From contig JAGQOU010000008.1 in the NCBI GenBank assembly GCA_020427145.1, forward strand, positions 1 through 64,000: a stretch of DNA of 64,000 nucleotides. Reading direction: 5' to 3'. Positions 1,147 to 5,303 of the stretch are shown piece by piece. The notes beneath the pieces are model-generated. The model ran no database searches and was not told where the DNA came from. It worked only from the letters and a program-made list of their open reading frames with translations. The stretch comes from Planctomycetales bacterium (lineage in GTDB: Bacteria > Planctomycetota > Planctomycetia > Pirellulales > Lacipirellulaceae). The stretch's first letter is position 1. Every line of letters starts with the position of its first letter. Both the position numbers and the translations under genes were made by a program.

Positions 1147-1280
1147 GCATGCCATGCCGACGCGGCGTCGGTCGGGTAGAATGGGGCGGCCGTTGGATTG
1201 GCTCGTTCGATTGAGCCGTGCTGTGATTTCGGCGGCGCTGTCGCGATTTTCCACGCTCCCACCATTCGTTTGTTGTGCCG

Positions 1281-3848
1281 ATGACGCGTTACGGTTCCGC
1301 CCGCCGCCCGCCGCAGAATGCCCGTTGGTGGTTGCTGGTGCTGCTGGCGGCTTGCCTGGGCGCCAGCGGGTGCAGTGGTTGTCGGCAGGACGCCGCTCAA
1401 AATGCGGCCGGGAAAAACAATGCCAGCAAGGACGAGGACGCCAAAGAGAAAGACGACGAGGACGAGGAAAAGAAGAAGATCCCGGATTTTGAAATCACGC
1501 CGCTGACGCCGCTGTTGAGCGAGTCCATTGTCGAAACCGAGGGCGGACAGTCGCTCGCGCTGGCCAAACCGGGACATTGGACGGCGACGTCGCAGCGCAT
1601 GAAGGCGAATGCCGACGATCTCGAAGCGCGCACCATCTTGGAGGTGCTCGATTCGAAGGGCGAACCTCAGCCCCTGCCCCATACGCCCTACGATCTTGTG
1701 TCGAGCCGGCCGGCGGTGCTCGCTAAGGGCCAGGAGAAACGGATCGAGGCGGGGTTGCTGATTCCTGACCAGTCGGGGCGGTTTCAGGTTGAAGCGCGGC
1801 TGGAGCGGGCCTCGGGGAGCGCCGTTCGCGAGGCGCCTCCGCCAGCATCATGGCGGGCGATGCCGTCCTATCAATATTTCCTGGTCGTGCTCGCCGCGGA
1901 GCCGGCGCAGTATACCTTTCTCAAAGTGACCAATTCCGTTCGCGCGCCGTGGGAGAGCAGCTCCGGGCGGTACGCGTTGCACTACCGGGTTGTGCTGGCC
2001 GACGGCGATCAACCGCCGCCGCTGCCGAGCAATCCCCTGGAGTGGACGAGCGTCGCGCAGCTGTGGTGGGACGAGCCGAATCTCATTCGCATCAGCCCCG
2101 AGCAACAGCAAGCGCTGGTCGATTGGCTCCATTGGGGCGGGCGGCTGGTGATCAACGGTCCCGATTCGCTCGACGCGCTGCGGGGTTCGTTTCTCGACTC
2201 CTATCTGCCGGCTTACCCTGGCAAGGCGCGCGAAATTGGCAGCGCCGACCTGTCCGAACTCAACGACACGTGGACAGCTCGCGAGCGCGGCCGAGTCGTT
2301 TCGCCGCTGGCGCCGACCAAGCCTTGGTCGGGCATCGAATTGGAACTTCGCGACGGCGCCCAGCGCGTGCCGGGAACGGGCGGATTGCTGGTCGAGCGCG
2401 GCGTGGGGTTGGGAAGCATCGTCGTGTCGGCCATGCAGCTCGCTCAGCGGGATTTGGTGAACTGGCCGGGCTACGACAGTTTCCTCAACGGGGCCGTCAT
2501 GCGGCGCCCGCCGCGCGTGTTTCGCGTGGAGCAGGACCAGTTCTTCACCGGGTTGGAGGTCGATTGGTTCAACGTGGCCGACCACCGACTCGACGCCTAT
2601 TTCACCACCCCGCTGCGCTGGTTCGCCCGCGACGCCGGAGCCAAGGCGAATGCCCGCGACGAACCGGTTCCGGTCGATCCCCAGGCCGTCAATTGGGGCA
2701 TGGCGGGCGGCACGGGCGAGACGCGCACGGTGGTCGATCGGGCCGGCGGGATGGGCGCGTGGAGCGAATTCGGCGACGTCGCCTCGGCGGCGCGGGCCGC
2801 GCTGCGCGAGGCCGCGGGCGTGCGCGTGCCGGGCGCCGGGTTTGTCGTCGGGTGTTTGGCGATCTACCTCGTGGTCTTGGTGCCGTTCAATTGGATGGTG
2901 TTTCACGCGCTGCGGCGGATCGAATGGGCGTGGATCGCCGCGCCGATCATTGCCTTGCTTGGCGCGGCGGCCGTGGTGCATCAGGCTCAGCTCGACATCG
3001 GCTTCGTCAGTTCGCAGACCGAAATCGCGCTGTTGGAATTGCAGGGCGACCATCCGCGCGGTCACCTGAGCCGCTTTGCCGGGCTGTACACGTCGCTCTC
3101 CTCGACGTTCGACGTGGAGTACGACCAGCCCACGGCCGTGGCGGCGCCATTTCCGCGCGACGAGGAATTTAGCTTAGGTTTCGGCGACAGCTACTCCACG
3201 GTGGCGTTTGAGAAGTACGCCGAAACGAAACTGCGCGGCCTGGCCGTCTCGTCGGCCAGCACGCAGTTTGTCCACAGCGAGGAAATCCATCCGCTGGAGG
3301 GCGCCGTGCGGCTGACAACCGCGACGAATCGCATGCGGCAGTTGGAAAACCGCACCGGCTACCATCTCAGCGACGTGGCGCTGGTTCGTCGCGAGGCCGA
3401 TGGCACGCTGCTGGGGTGCTGGATTGGCGATCTCCGCGACGGCAACGTGACCATCGTGTCGTTTCGGCCAATCAGTTCTGATCCGAAGTCCGTGCCCTTT
3501 GCCGAAGAACGTCAGGCCGCGGCCGAGAAAGCGGCAAAGTCGGGGGAAGCCCGCTTGAACGTGGAAGACCTCGTGAAGGTGGCGTTGCAGTTTCCCGACG
3601 ATGGCGATCCGCTTTATGGCGGACGAGCCGAGACGCGGTTGGTGGCCCGAATCGACGGCGCGCTGCCCGGCGCCGGGCCGGAGCCCGCGGTGTCGCAATC
3701 AACCGGCGCCACGGTGGTGTTGGCCCACCTCGACTACGGCCCCCTGGCCCCCCCGACGCCGGACGCCAACTCCCCCAGCGACGTGATGCCCGCGGGCGAA
3801 GTGCGGGACGCCTTCGAGGAAGACCAAGGCAGCGATCTCTTTGAGTAG
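1281..3848 (+). CDS. Large lipoprotein/membrane protein with GATase-like region
   Basis: The ATG at 1281 is chosen over a GTG six bases earlier because it gives a compact signal peptide ending in a lipobox-like LGASGC. A charged Lys/Asp/Glu linker follows. Around residues 255-300 the stretch ISPEQQQALVDWLHWGGRLV resembles the glutamine-amidotransferase-like fold found in DUF4159/DUF4350-type proteins, without a visible catalytic triad. Two adjacent membrane segments lie near residues 515-565, after which a soluble domain of almost 300 residues continues. Proteins of this layout often sit beside ABC-type exporters such as the gliding-type systems, which fits the ATPase gene downstream. The substrate and function are unknown to me; co-function with the 4377 ATPase is inference. 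Confidence 0.65.
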   Translation: MTRYGSARRPPQNARWWLLVLLAACLGASGCSGCRQDAAQNAAGKNNASKDEDAKEKDDEDEEKKKIPDFEITPLTPLLSESIVETEGGQSLALAKPGHWTATSQRMKANADDLEARTILEVLDSKGEPQPLPHTPYDLVSSRPAVLAKGQEKRIEAGLLIPDQSGRFQVEARLERASGSAVREAPPPASWRAMPSYQYFLVVLAAEPAQYTFLKVTNSVRAPWESSSGRYALHYRVVLADGDQPPPLPSNPLEWTSVAQLWWDEPNLIRISPEQQQALVDWLHWGGRLVINGPDSLDALRGSFLDSYLPAYPGKAREIGSADLSELNDTWTARERGRVVSPLAPTKPWSGIELELRDGAQRVPGTGGLLVERGVGLGSIVVSAMQLAQRDLVNWPGYDSFLNGAVMRRPPRVFRVEQDQFFTGLEVDWFNVADHRLDAYFTTPLRWFARDAGAKANARDEPVPVDPQAVNWGMAGGTGETRTVVDRAGGMGAWSEFGDVASAARAALREAAGVRVPGAGFVVGCLAIYLVVLVPFNWMVFHALRRIEWAWIAAPIIALLGAAAVVHQAQLDIGFVSSQTEIALLELQGDHPRGHLSRFAGLYTSLSSTFDVEYDQPTAVAAPFPRDEEFSLGFGDSYSTVAFEKYAETKLRGLAVSSASTQFVHSEEIHPLEGAVRLTTATNRMRQLENRTGYHLSDVALVRREADGTLLGCWIGDLRDGNVTIVSFRPISSDPKSVPFAEERQAAAEKAAKSGEARLNVEDLVKVALQFPDDGDPLYGGRAETRLVARIDGALPGAGPEPAVSQSTGATVVLAHLDYGPLAPPTPDANSPSDVMPAGEVRDAFEEDQGSDLFE

Positions 3849-3866: not shown

Positions 3867-3892
3867 ACCACAAAGGCACGAAGGGCACAAAG
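3867..3892 (+). repeat. Left inverted repeat of GxxExxY unit
   Basis: A 26-bp repeat beginning ACCACAAAGGCACGAAGG. It is two near-copies of a shorter motif (CACAAAGGCACGAAGGGC) and starts 19 bp after the stop codon of the upstream lipoprotein gene. Compared with the right copy it differs at only three positions. Confidence 0.8.
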
Positions 3893-3894
3893 TG

Positions 3895-4301
3895 ATGCCT
3901 AACGCAGGGCAAACGTTTGAGCCATTATCGGAAGAGATAGAGAATACCGCCCGCGTCGTTGTCGATGCGGCGATGAAGGTGCATCGAACGCTGGGGCCCG
4001 GGCTACTCGAGTCGGTCTATGAGGCGTGTCTTTGCAGGGAATTGCAGATGCGAGGAATCGATTTTCGACGTCAGGTTGCCGTGCCAGTGAAGTATGCTGG
4101 CGAATCCGTCGAGTGTGGATTTCGCATCGACATTCTCGTGGCGGAGTCGATCGTGCTGGAACTCAAGGCGGTCGAACACGTGTTGCCGATACACGAGGCT
4201 CAGCTACTCACATACATGAAGCTCTCGCGACATCGACTAGGATTATTATCAACTTCAATACGACATTGCTGAAGCATGGAATCAAACGAATGGTCTTGTG
4301 A
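3895..4301 (+). pseudogene. GxxExxY protein (PD-(D/E)XK-like fold), frameshifted
   Basis: The start at 3895 gives the usual family N-terminus with the signature GPGLLESVYE (G-x-x-E-x-x-Y). The nuclease-like core shows FRIDILV followed by IVLELKAVE, the D...ExK pattern of the PD-(D/E)XK superfamily. The frame runs off into an early stop at 4272 after GLLSTSIRHC. Moving to the -1 frame at base 4248 gives GLL followed by INFNTTLLKHGIKRMVL and a stop at 4301, which is the normal family C-terminus. A single-base deletion near 4248 explains this. No slippery heptamer is seen, so programmed frameshifting is unlikely. A sequencing error is the other possibility. The biochemical role of the family is not established. 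Confidence 0.85.
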
Positions 4302-4330
4302 GGCCTTTGGCCAGCCTCGCCGTTCACGTT

Positions 4331-4356
4331 CTTCGTGCTCTTCGTGTCTTTGTGGT
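4331..4356 (-). repeat. Right inverted repeat of GxxExxY unit
   Basis: On the minus strand it reads ACCACAAAGACACGAAGAGC and onward, 23 of 26 matching the left copy. It lies 29 bp past the end of the GxxExxY gene and 20 bp upstream of the ABC ATPase start, so it sits in that gene's leader region. Confidence 0.8.
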
Positions 4357-4376: not shown

Positions 4377-5303
4377 ATGATCGAACTCACCAACTTTGGC
4401 AAGCAGTACGGCGACTTCACCGCCGTCGCCAACCTGAATTTGAAGATCGAAGCCGGCGAGATGTTTGGCTTCATCGGCCCCAATGGCGCGGGCAAGAGCA
4501 CCACGATCCGCTTCTTGGCGACGTTGCTCAAGGCGACGCACGGCGAGGGCGTGGTCGCCGGGCATAGCGTGACCCGCGATCCGATTGGCGTGCGCCGCGC
4601 AGTGGGCTACATGCCGGACCACTTCGGCGTGTACGACGGCATGAAGGTGTGGGAGTTCTTAGACTTCTTCGCCGTGGCCTACCAGGTGCCGCGCGCGCGC
4701 CGCAAGTCGGTGCTCTCCGACGTGCTGGAGTTGCTCGATCTGACGCATAAACGCGACGATTTCGTCAACGGGTTGTCGCGCGGCATGAAACAGCGGCTCT
4801 GCCTGGCTAAGACGCTGGTCCACGATCCGCCCGTGCTCATTCTCGACGAACCGGCGAGCGGGTTGGACCCGCGCGCGCGATTGGAAGTGAAGGCGCTGCT
4901 CAAGGAGCTGCGCAAAATGGGCAAGACGATACTCATCTCCAGCCACATCCTTACCGAGCTGGCCGACTGCTGCACGTCGATTGGCATCATCGAGCGGGGC
5001 CAGCTGTTGCTGCACGGGCCGATCGACAAGGTCTATCGCAAGCTCCAGCGCAATCGGCATCTCGAGGTGCGATTCACGGGCAACCCGGCGCCGGGGATCA
5101 GCCTGATTCGCAGCGATCCCAAGGTGCGCGAGGTGGTTGAGAATAGTCGCAGCTGCGTGGTGGAACTCGCGGGAGACGACGCCGACGTGCAGCGATTGAT
5201 GCGGCAACTCGTGGCCGCTGACTGCGGGCTGGTCAGCTTTGCCGACAAGGAGCCGACGCTCGAAGACGTGTTTATGTTGGTGACCAAGGGGTTGGTGACC
5301 TGA
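4377..5303 (+). CDS. ABC transporter ATP-binding protein (export type)
   Basis: A 308-residue ABC ATPase. Walker A is GPNGAGKST (residues 34-42), the signature is LSRGMKQR (133-140), Walker B with catalytic Glu is LILDEPASGLDP (about 154-165), and the switch His is in ILISSH. The single nucleotide-binding domain with a ~90-residue C-terminal extension is typical of the CcmA/NatA/GldA class, which drives export or membrane remodelling with a separate permease. The ATG at 4377 is preferred to an upstream start at 4335, because the earlier codons overlap the GxxExxY repeat. Its probable partner is the lipoprotein gene at 1281; the permease partner is not in the window. Confidence 0.9.
   Translation: MIELTNFGKQYGDFTAVANLNLKIEAGEMFGFIGPNGAGKSTTIRFLATLLKATHGEGVVAGHSVTRDPIGVRRAVGYMPDHFGVYDGMKVWEFLDFFAVAYQVPRARRKSVLSDVLELLDLTHKRDDFVNGLSRGMKQRLCLAKTLVHDPPVLILDEPASGLDPRARLEVKALLKELRKMGKTILISSHILTELADCCTSIGIIERGQLLLHGPIDKVYRKLQRNRHLEVRFTGNPAPGISLIRSDPKVREVVENSRSCVVELAGDDADVQRLMRQLVAADCGLVSFADKEPTLEDVFMLVTKGLVT

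Follow-up and report, generated by a model that had tools for sequence, protein, structure and literature searches.

Inverted three-unit arms around a frameshifted GxxExxY nuclease gene in a Planctomycetales genome and around its homologues in other phyla

The 490-bp unit and its intergenic site

The window analysed here comprises 64,000 nucleotides (G000:C132:1-64000) of a draft Planctomycetales genome of 5.86 Mb and 72% completeness. It contains a 490-bp unit located between an 857-aa gene (1275-3848, forward strand), for which profile searches returned no Pfam or NCBIfam match, and the gene for a DrrA/GldA-like ABC ATPase (4377-5303, forward strand), identified by its profile matches and its neighbourhood in relatives. 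The unit is bordered by two 26-nt arms, one at 3867-3892 (forward strand) and its inverted copy at 4331-4356 (reverse strand; reverse complement ACCACAAAGACACGAAGAGCACGAAG), which lie 438 nt apart and are complementary at 23 of 26 positions, as given in a preliminary description of this DNA. The left arm is composed of three imperfect 7-nt cores, CACAAAG (3869-3875), CACGAAG (3877-3883) and CACAAAG (3886-3892), arranged as CACAAAG-G-CACGAAG-GG-CACAAAG, and the right arm has the same design in inverted orientation. The arm pair scores 20 (matches minus mismatches); no score above 16 was obtained when the same geometry was placed at random 600 times in related DNA, and the pairing is therefore not due to chance. 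The right arm falls in the leader of the ATPase gene, its end being separated by 20 nt from the ATG at 4377.

A PD-(D/E)XK nuclease gene of the GxxExxY family (TIGR04256/PF13366; 3895-4272, forward strand) is encoded between the arms, with matches to TIGR04256 (E 3e-38, 130.8 bits, cut-off 35) and PF13366 (PDDEXK_3; E 5e-37, 127.4 bits, cut-off 22). The ATG at 3895 is likely its start and the codon at 4270-4272 a premature stop. The profile match extends to position 102-103 and stops at 4248, while the last approximately 13 positions are found in a different frame at 4249-4301 (forward strand), where the displaced C-terminus INFNTTLLKHGIKRMVL ends with the stop at 4299-4301 of an ORF spanning 4026-4301 (...IIINFNTTLLKHGIKRMVL). 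As judged from the reading frames, the break at about 4248-4249 fits the apparent single-base deletion (4246-4252, forward strand) suspected previously, with an assembly error in this MAG as an alternative. The catalytic residues E, D, E-x-K, Q and Y are intact and are all encoded 5' of the frameshift. The unit thus retains both arms around a broken nuclease gene.

Comparison of the site in 18 relatives revealed that a homologous C-terminus of the 857-aa protein precedes the ATPase in most of them, and as these two genes are neighbours there, the unit interrupts a conserved pair, in agreement with the earlier suspicion that it splits linked genes. The same-genus genome G001 has a short intergenic region and no element at this place. 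In G028 a GxxExxY element occupies the site, gene-less arm hairpins are found there in G008, G020 and G025, and in several further relatives the place is taken by hairpins built of other unit families. An orthologous relationship between the genes that the window and G028 carry here was considered and rejected, given that the G028 protein is not the closest relative of the window protein (distance 1.04, weakly supported), and the site has therefore probably been hit more than once or received separate arrivals. The preliminary description had interpreted the unit as a decaying non-autonomous mobile element. The insertion and the decay are consistent with the empty G001 site and the disrupted gene; the term non-autonomous is doubtful, as the enclosed gene is itself the best candidate for a mobilising or maintaining enzyme and as four other full-length copies in the same genome have open reading frames without a stop.

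The GxxExxY nuclease and its inverted arms in other genomes

Residues E23, D63, E73-x-K75, Q87 and Y91 are invariant in 37 GxxExxY sequences, including that of the window, E23 being the glutamate of the GxxExxY motif itself. The motif order E..D..ExK..QxxxY, together with the fold, matches the nucleases of the Cas4 and RecB/lambda-exonuclease type. The best fold match of the AlphaFold2 model (pLDDT 95.5) is 4ic1 (Z 9.3, rmsd 4.4 over 100 residues), the structure of the Cas4 protein SSO0001. Other fold matches have Z scores of at most 7.2 and are not separable from one another, while enzymes of the lambda-exonuclease type are among the Foldseek matches. PADLOC and sequence profiles gave weak matches to Cas4, in the same motif region, and to AbiEii. 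The cysteines that ligate the Fe-S cluster of Cas4 have no invariant or nearly invariant counterpart in two GxxExxY alignments, and the family is thus not a Fe-S-cluster Cas4. The dN/dS ratios are mostly below 0.2 between orthologous pairs, several of which approach saturation at synonymous sites, and the comparison of coding sequences indicates that the gene is under purifying selection. Copies within one genome are mostly diverged and lack signs of recent bursts; no recent identical paralogues were found among the loci compared from six other genomes, a set from which the search motif missed five loci. No relatives were detected in viral contigs with one query protein, in PHROGs, or with a meaningful E-value in a PDB sequence search. 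An earlier description of the function of GxxExxY, or of its occurrence between repeats, was not found in the literature searched, and the novelty is provisional given that subscription papers and preprints lay outside that search. GxxExxY or its accessions appear in three of the papers covered, none of which has the family as its subject to judge by the titles, and one of which mentions it in passing only (PMC8934634).

Five further GxxExxY loci are present in the source genome, four of which possess inverted arms of their own, with the cores CGCCAAG, CACGACG, CGCGAAT and ACAGGAT, while the fifth is truncated. When 60 relatives are included, 92 of 94 loci have inverted arms, and the median score of a locus's own arm pair is 22.5, compared with 10 for arms of different loci and 9 for shuffled arms, with 98% of the loci scoring above all shuffled controls. 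The layout recurs in many other phyla. Eighty loci were taken from the GTDB collection, spanning Acidobacteria, Chloroflexi, Proteobacteria, Verrucomicrobia, Bacteroidetes, Ignavibacteria, Armatimonadetes, others and a Methanosarcinales archaeon, and 65 of the 78 that were testable reach an arm score of at least 14, as against 17 of 78 mismatched pairs, a figure raised by the resemblance of arms across phyla. Three annotated plasmid records, from Bacteroides, Bernardetia and Sphingomonas, display the same arm layout by eye. An arm typically comprises three units of about 8-10 nt (period 8-10 nt in 135 of 144 elements), the sequence of which varies between elements and matches between the left and right arms of a single element. 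The expectation that the window repeat would surround other GxxExxY genes was consequently correct for the inverted arms and incorrect for their sequence, which is particular to each element.

Protein identity and arm similarity are correlated across the 144 elements (rank r 0.45, Mantel; reached by 0 of 199 permutations), also for pairs from different phyla (r 0.42). Correcting for arm GC content leaves the correlation in place (0.44), and the sequence flanking the arm on its outer side, used as control, shows none (-0.03). Arm and gene are therefore transmitted together or recognise one another.

Some of the elements appear to recur at the boundary of phosphoglycerate mutase and aspartate kinase genes in several genera (L001, L004 in the source genome, L028, L040, L051, L074 and L084), which suggests a long-held or preferred site. 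Others, in Sphingomonas (L298 2380-2960) and Bacteroides finegoldii (L296 2900-3460), are localised inside the fabD-fabG operon and after radA, and these genera are sampled well enough to make the sites suitable for comparison with empty ones. Other small ORFs are also found between arm pairs (L408 229-824, L036 3464-4016, L397 244-612 and L396 35-459), two of which share a similar N-terminal membrane segment (RFSLRTLFLLTGLICIACW and RFTLKQVLLGTTLVAVACW), and arms may carry cargo genes.

Gene-less hairpins and their dependence on the gene

Hairpins with arms of the GxxExxY type and no gene between them are common and dispersed in genomes that bear the gene, and six gene-less loops that were checked contained no recognisable remnant of GxxExxY. 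Whole genomes were searched with fixed patterns for the arms of three families, and the reversed patterns used as control gave counts that were nearly always zero. Each of the 23 genomes with GxxExxY in which the three families were all counted contains between 6 and 441 arms, compared with 0-1 arms in ten of the eleven gene-less genomes. Arm presence is associated with gene presence for every one of these families of arms (Fisher p 2e-5 to 2e-4) and also among genomes of the same taxonomic family (p 0.003-0.047), these genomes not being phylogenetically independent in either comparison. G036 and G030, two species without GxxExxY, have no arms at all, and 14-269 are present in their congeners. 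The exception is G001, of the same genus as the source, which has 45 arms and no detected GxxExxY; if the loss of the gene was recent, the decay of arms could be watched in this genome. The arm variant of the window unit has no further copies, gene-less or otherwise, in the 72%-complete source genome.

Near-identical arm pairs occur at many unrelated sites in G007 and G019, with unrelated loops, and at an intergenic site common to both genomes, between genes which we take to be pyrH and frr, the arms can be aligned and the loop cannot. Two hairpins of G016 have no counterpart at the corresponding place in G028. The syntenic 200 kb of these two genomes (L256-L275) also abound in other REP-like hairpins (TAGCCCCGGGCTCCGCCCGGGGGT; GTAGCCGCGGGTCAACGACCCGCCGG), whose sequences are not related to those of the arms. 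Many arm copies in G020 and G005 are nested in MITE-like repeats with terminal inverted repeats of their own (L276-L278 and L281-L294 in G020, about 290 bp; L369-L388 in G005), and about half of the arms in the source genome lie within one multi-copy repeat. The latter (L341-L354) often occurs at contig ends and has CACGACG arms nested in CGCCAAG arms. Such hitch-hiking inflates the high-copy arm counts in G020, G005 and the source genome, and the high-copy families were dropped as proof of arm transposition for this reason.

These hairpins could have existed, for another reason, before the gene entered them. GxxExxY would then act as a homing nuclease that cuts empty hairpins, and homologous repair spanning the arms would place a copy of its gene in the loop. 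The gene-less hairpins (G008, G020 and G025) and the different GxxExxY (G028) at the window site, the arbitrary loops and the match of arms to protein clade are all consistent with homing, but arms are nearly absent from genomes without the gene and so do not seem to be independent of it, and no pair of sites was found which differs by the gene alone within identical arms. Homing is considered unlikely.

Interpretation and a parallel PF05635 system

The occurrence of GxxExxY genes between repeats in most of the bacterial phyla sampled and in one archaeon suggests an undescribed kind of selfish repeat. With confidence slightly above even, the 490-bp unit is interpreted as a member of a very widespread and apparently undescribed class, in which a RecB/Cas4-type nuclease gene is carried between inverted three-unit arms and which operates in the manner of REPIN/RAYT. 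The two arms could fold into a hairpin in single-stranded DNA and would, as a pair, be the replicating or converted unit; the nuclease encoded within one cognate pair would cut or process single-stranded hairpins of cognate sequence, and host repair would then spread copies of the arms or keep the arms identical. The window copy, with its frame lost, would have become, or be becoming, a gene-less hairpin. The layout of the elements, the joint diversification of arms and proteins, the reliance of arms on the gene, the preserved active site, purifying selection and the variable occupancy of orthologous sites are observed here; action of the nuclease on the arms, single-stranded hairpins as its substrate and movement of the arms are inferred. 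The likeness to REPIN/RAYT lies in the dispersed, extragenic inverted doublets with a less conserved spacer, the cognate gene that lies close to these repeats or between them, and the link of a repeat class to a specific protein (TnpA-REP; PMC3116915, PMC8266576). The reading draws on these inverted doublets with variable spacers, the gene inside one of them, the tie between repeat class and protein clade and the scarcity of repeats where the gene is missing. The known system, however, employs a Y1 HUH tyrosine transposase and a tagged palindrome, whereas a PD-(D/E)XK nuclease of the RecB/Cas4 type and three direct units of about 9 nt per arm are found here; the resemblance is accordingly one of working and not of membership, as the enzyme class differs. 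The unpaired GTAG/CGTC tetranucleotide that tags the REPIN/RAYT repeats was not seen by eye at the ends of the arms inspected. Several observations count against the REPIN/RAYT-like reading, namely that neither an insertion junction at base resolution nor a target-site duplication was seen, that many high-copy arms hitch-hike in other repeats, that G001 has arms without the gene, that gene copies within a genome are mostly diverged and lack recent bursts, that the window arm variant has no gene-less copies, and that the genomes are not phylogenetically independent.

Recombination-promoting nucleases of the Rpn/YhgA type belong to the PD-(D/E)XK superfamily as well. They are similarly DNA nucleases studied as DNA-mobilising enzymes (PF04754; PMC5350276), but constitute another Pfam family, and the abstract of that study mentions no flanking arm arrays. 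GxxExxY is a common annotation to which the literature searched assigns no function, and its arms offer a candidate substrate and a testable function.

Alternatively, the arms may be regulatory hairpins selected for a host function such as mRNA processing, attenuation or chromosome organisation, and GxxExxY, expressed from within the element, may be a nuclease of use to the cell, for instance in repair or in defence. Arms that are alignable where neutral DNA is not, elements held at the boundary of phosphoglycerate mutase and aspartokinase genes in several genera, and purifying selection on the gene would all be expected in this case. Arm mismatches do not, however, have the G-U bias of a selected RNA stem (78 are wobble-compatible and 92 the opposite), which disfavours RNA as the selected form and led to the abandonment of selection on an RNA stem; moreover, presence or absence and arm identity vary freely among related species, and the PADLOC matches are weak and limited to the Cas4 motif and AbiEii. 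A host function is considered about as unlikely as homing.

The unit could also behave at the RNA level like the intervening sequences (IVS) of 23S rRNA, with RNase III excising it from operon transcripts and so making its insertion neutral. Its layout and its insertion within operons accord with this proposal, given that the 23S rRNA IVS likewise consists of a small ORF, of the S23/four-helix-bundle type (PF05635), within inverted ends of about 28 nt and with tandem short units beside the ORF; in Coxiella, three GACAGAT heptamers precede the ORF (PMC4990558). The IVS differs, however, in its protein fold, its 7-nt units (8-10 nt here) and its location in rRNA rather than between protein-coding genes, and no four-helix-bundle ORF in a 23S rRNA gene was found for the window unit by ORF and profile searches. 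The mismatches lack wobble asymmetry in the RNA sense and the co-diversification of arms and proteins would be left unexplained, making this proposal quite improbable. Improbable to a slightly greater degree is the model drawn from the preliminary description, a decaying classical terminal-inverted-repeat unit moved by a transposase encoded elsewhere, which would account for the inverted ends, the frameshifted gene and the empty G001 site but is weakened by the lack of target-site duplications (mean 2.04 nt in 140 elements and 1.89 +- 0.09 for mismatched flanks), by repeats that differ at each GxxExxY locus and by a gene family which itself accompanies the repeats across phyla.

The GxxExxY elements have a counterpart in the same genomes. 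At 27 of 30 loci, PF05635 genes (four-helix-bundle, 23S IVS-type) lie between inverted arms, as against one of 30 mismatched pairs, and the arm period is 7 nt in 26 of these 27. The loci surveyed are L226-L255 in relatives, L237 being in the source genome. The PF05635 genes in their 7-nt arrays are a second, parallel system, with which the Coxiella GACAGAT heptamers (PMC4990558) are in agreement. More speculatively, and with rather less confidence than is placed in the GxxExxY class itself, GxxExxY and PF05635 might represent two classes of selfish DNA that exist in parallel across phyla, each relying on a very small protein, a nuclease or a binder of nucleic acids, to maintain and spread inverted arrays of short tandem units by a mechanism unrelated to known transposases. 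If so, many of the short intergenic repeats of bacterial genomes that still lack an explanation, such as heptamers and 9-mers, would be accounted for, and dispersed short repeats whose spread was left open would have a possible source. The TAACTGA heptamers are an example, being short tandem intergenic units in distant phyla for which their author found no mechanism of transfer (PMC4679880). They differ in being direct repeats with no associated gene in the description, and a cognate relationship is likelier with the PF05635 system than with GxxExxY.
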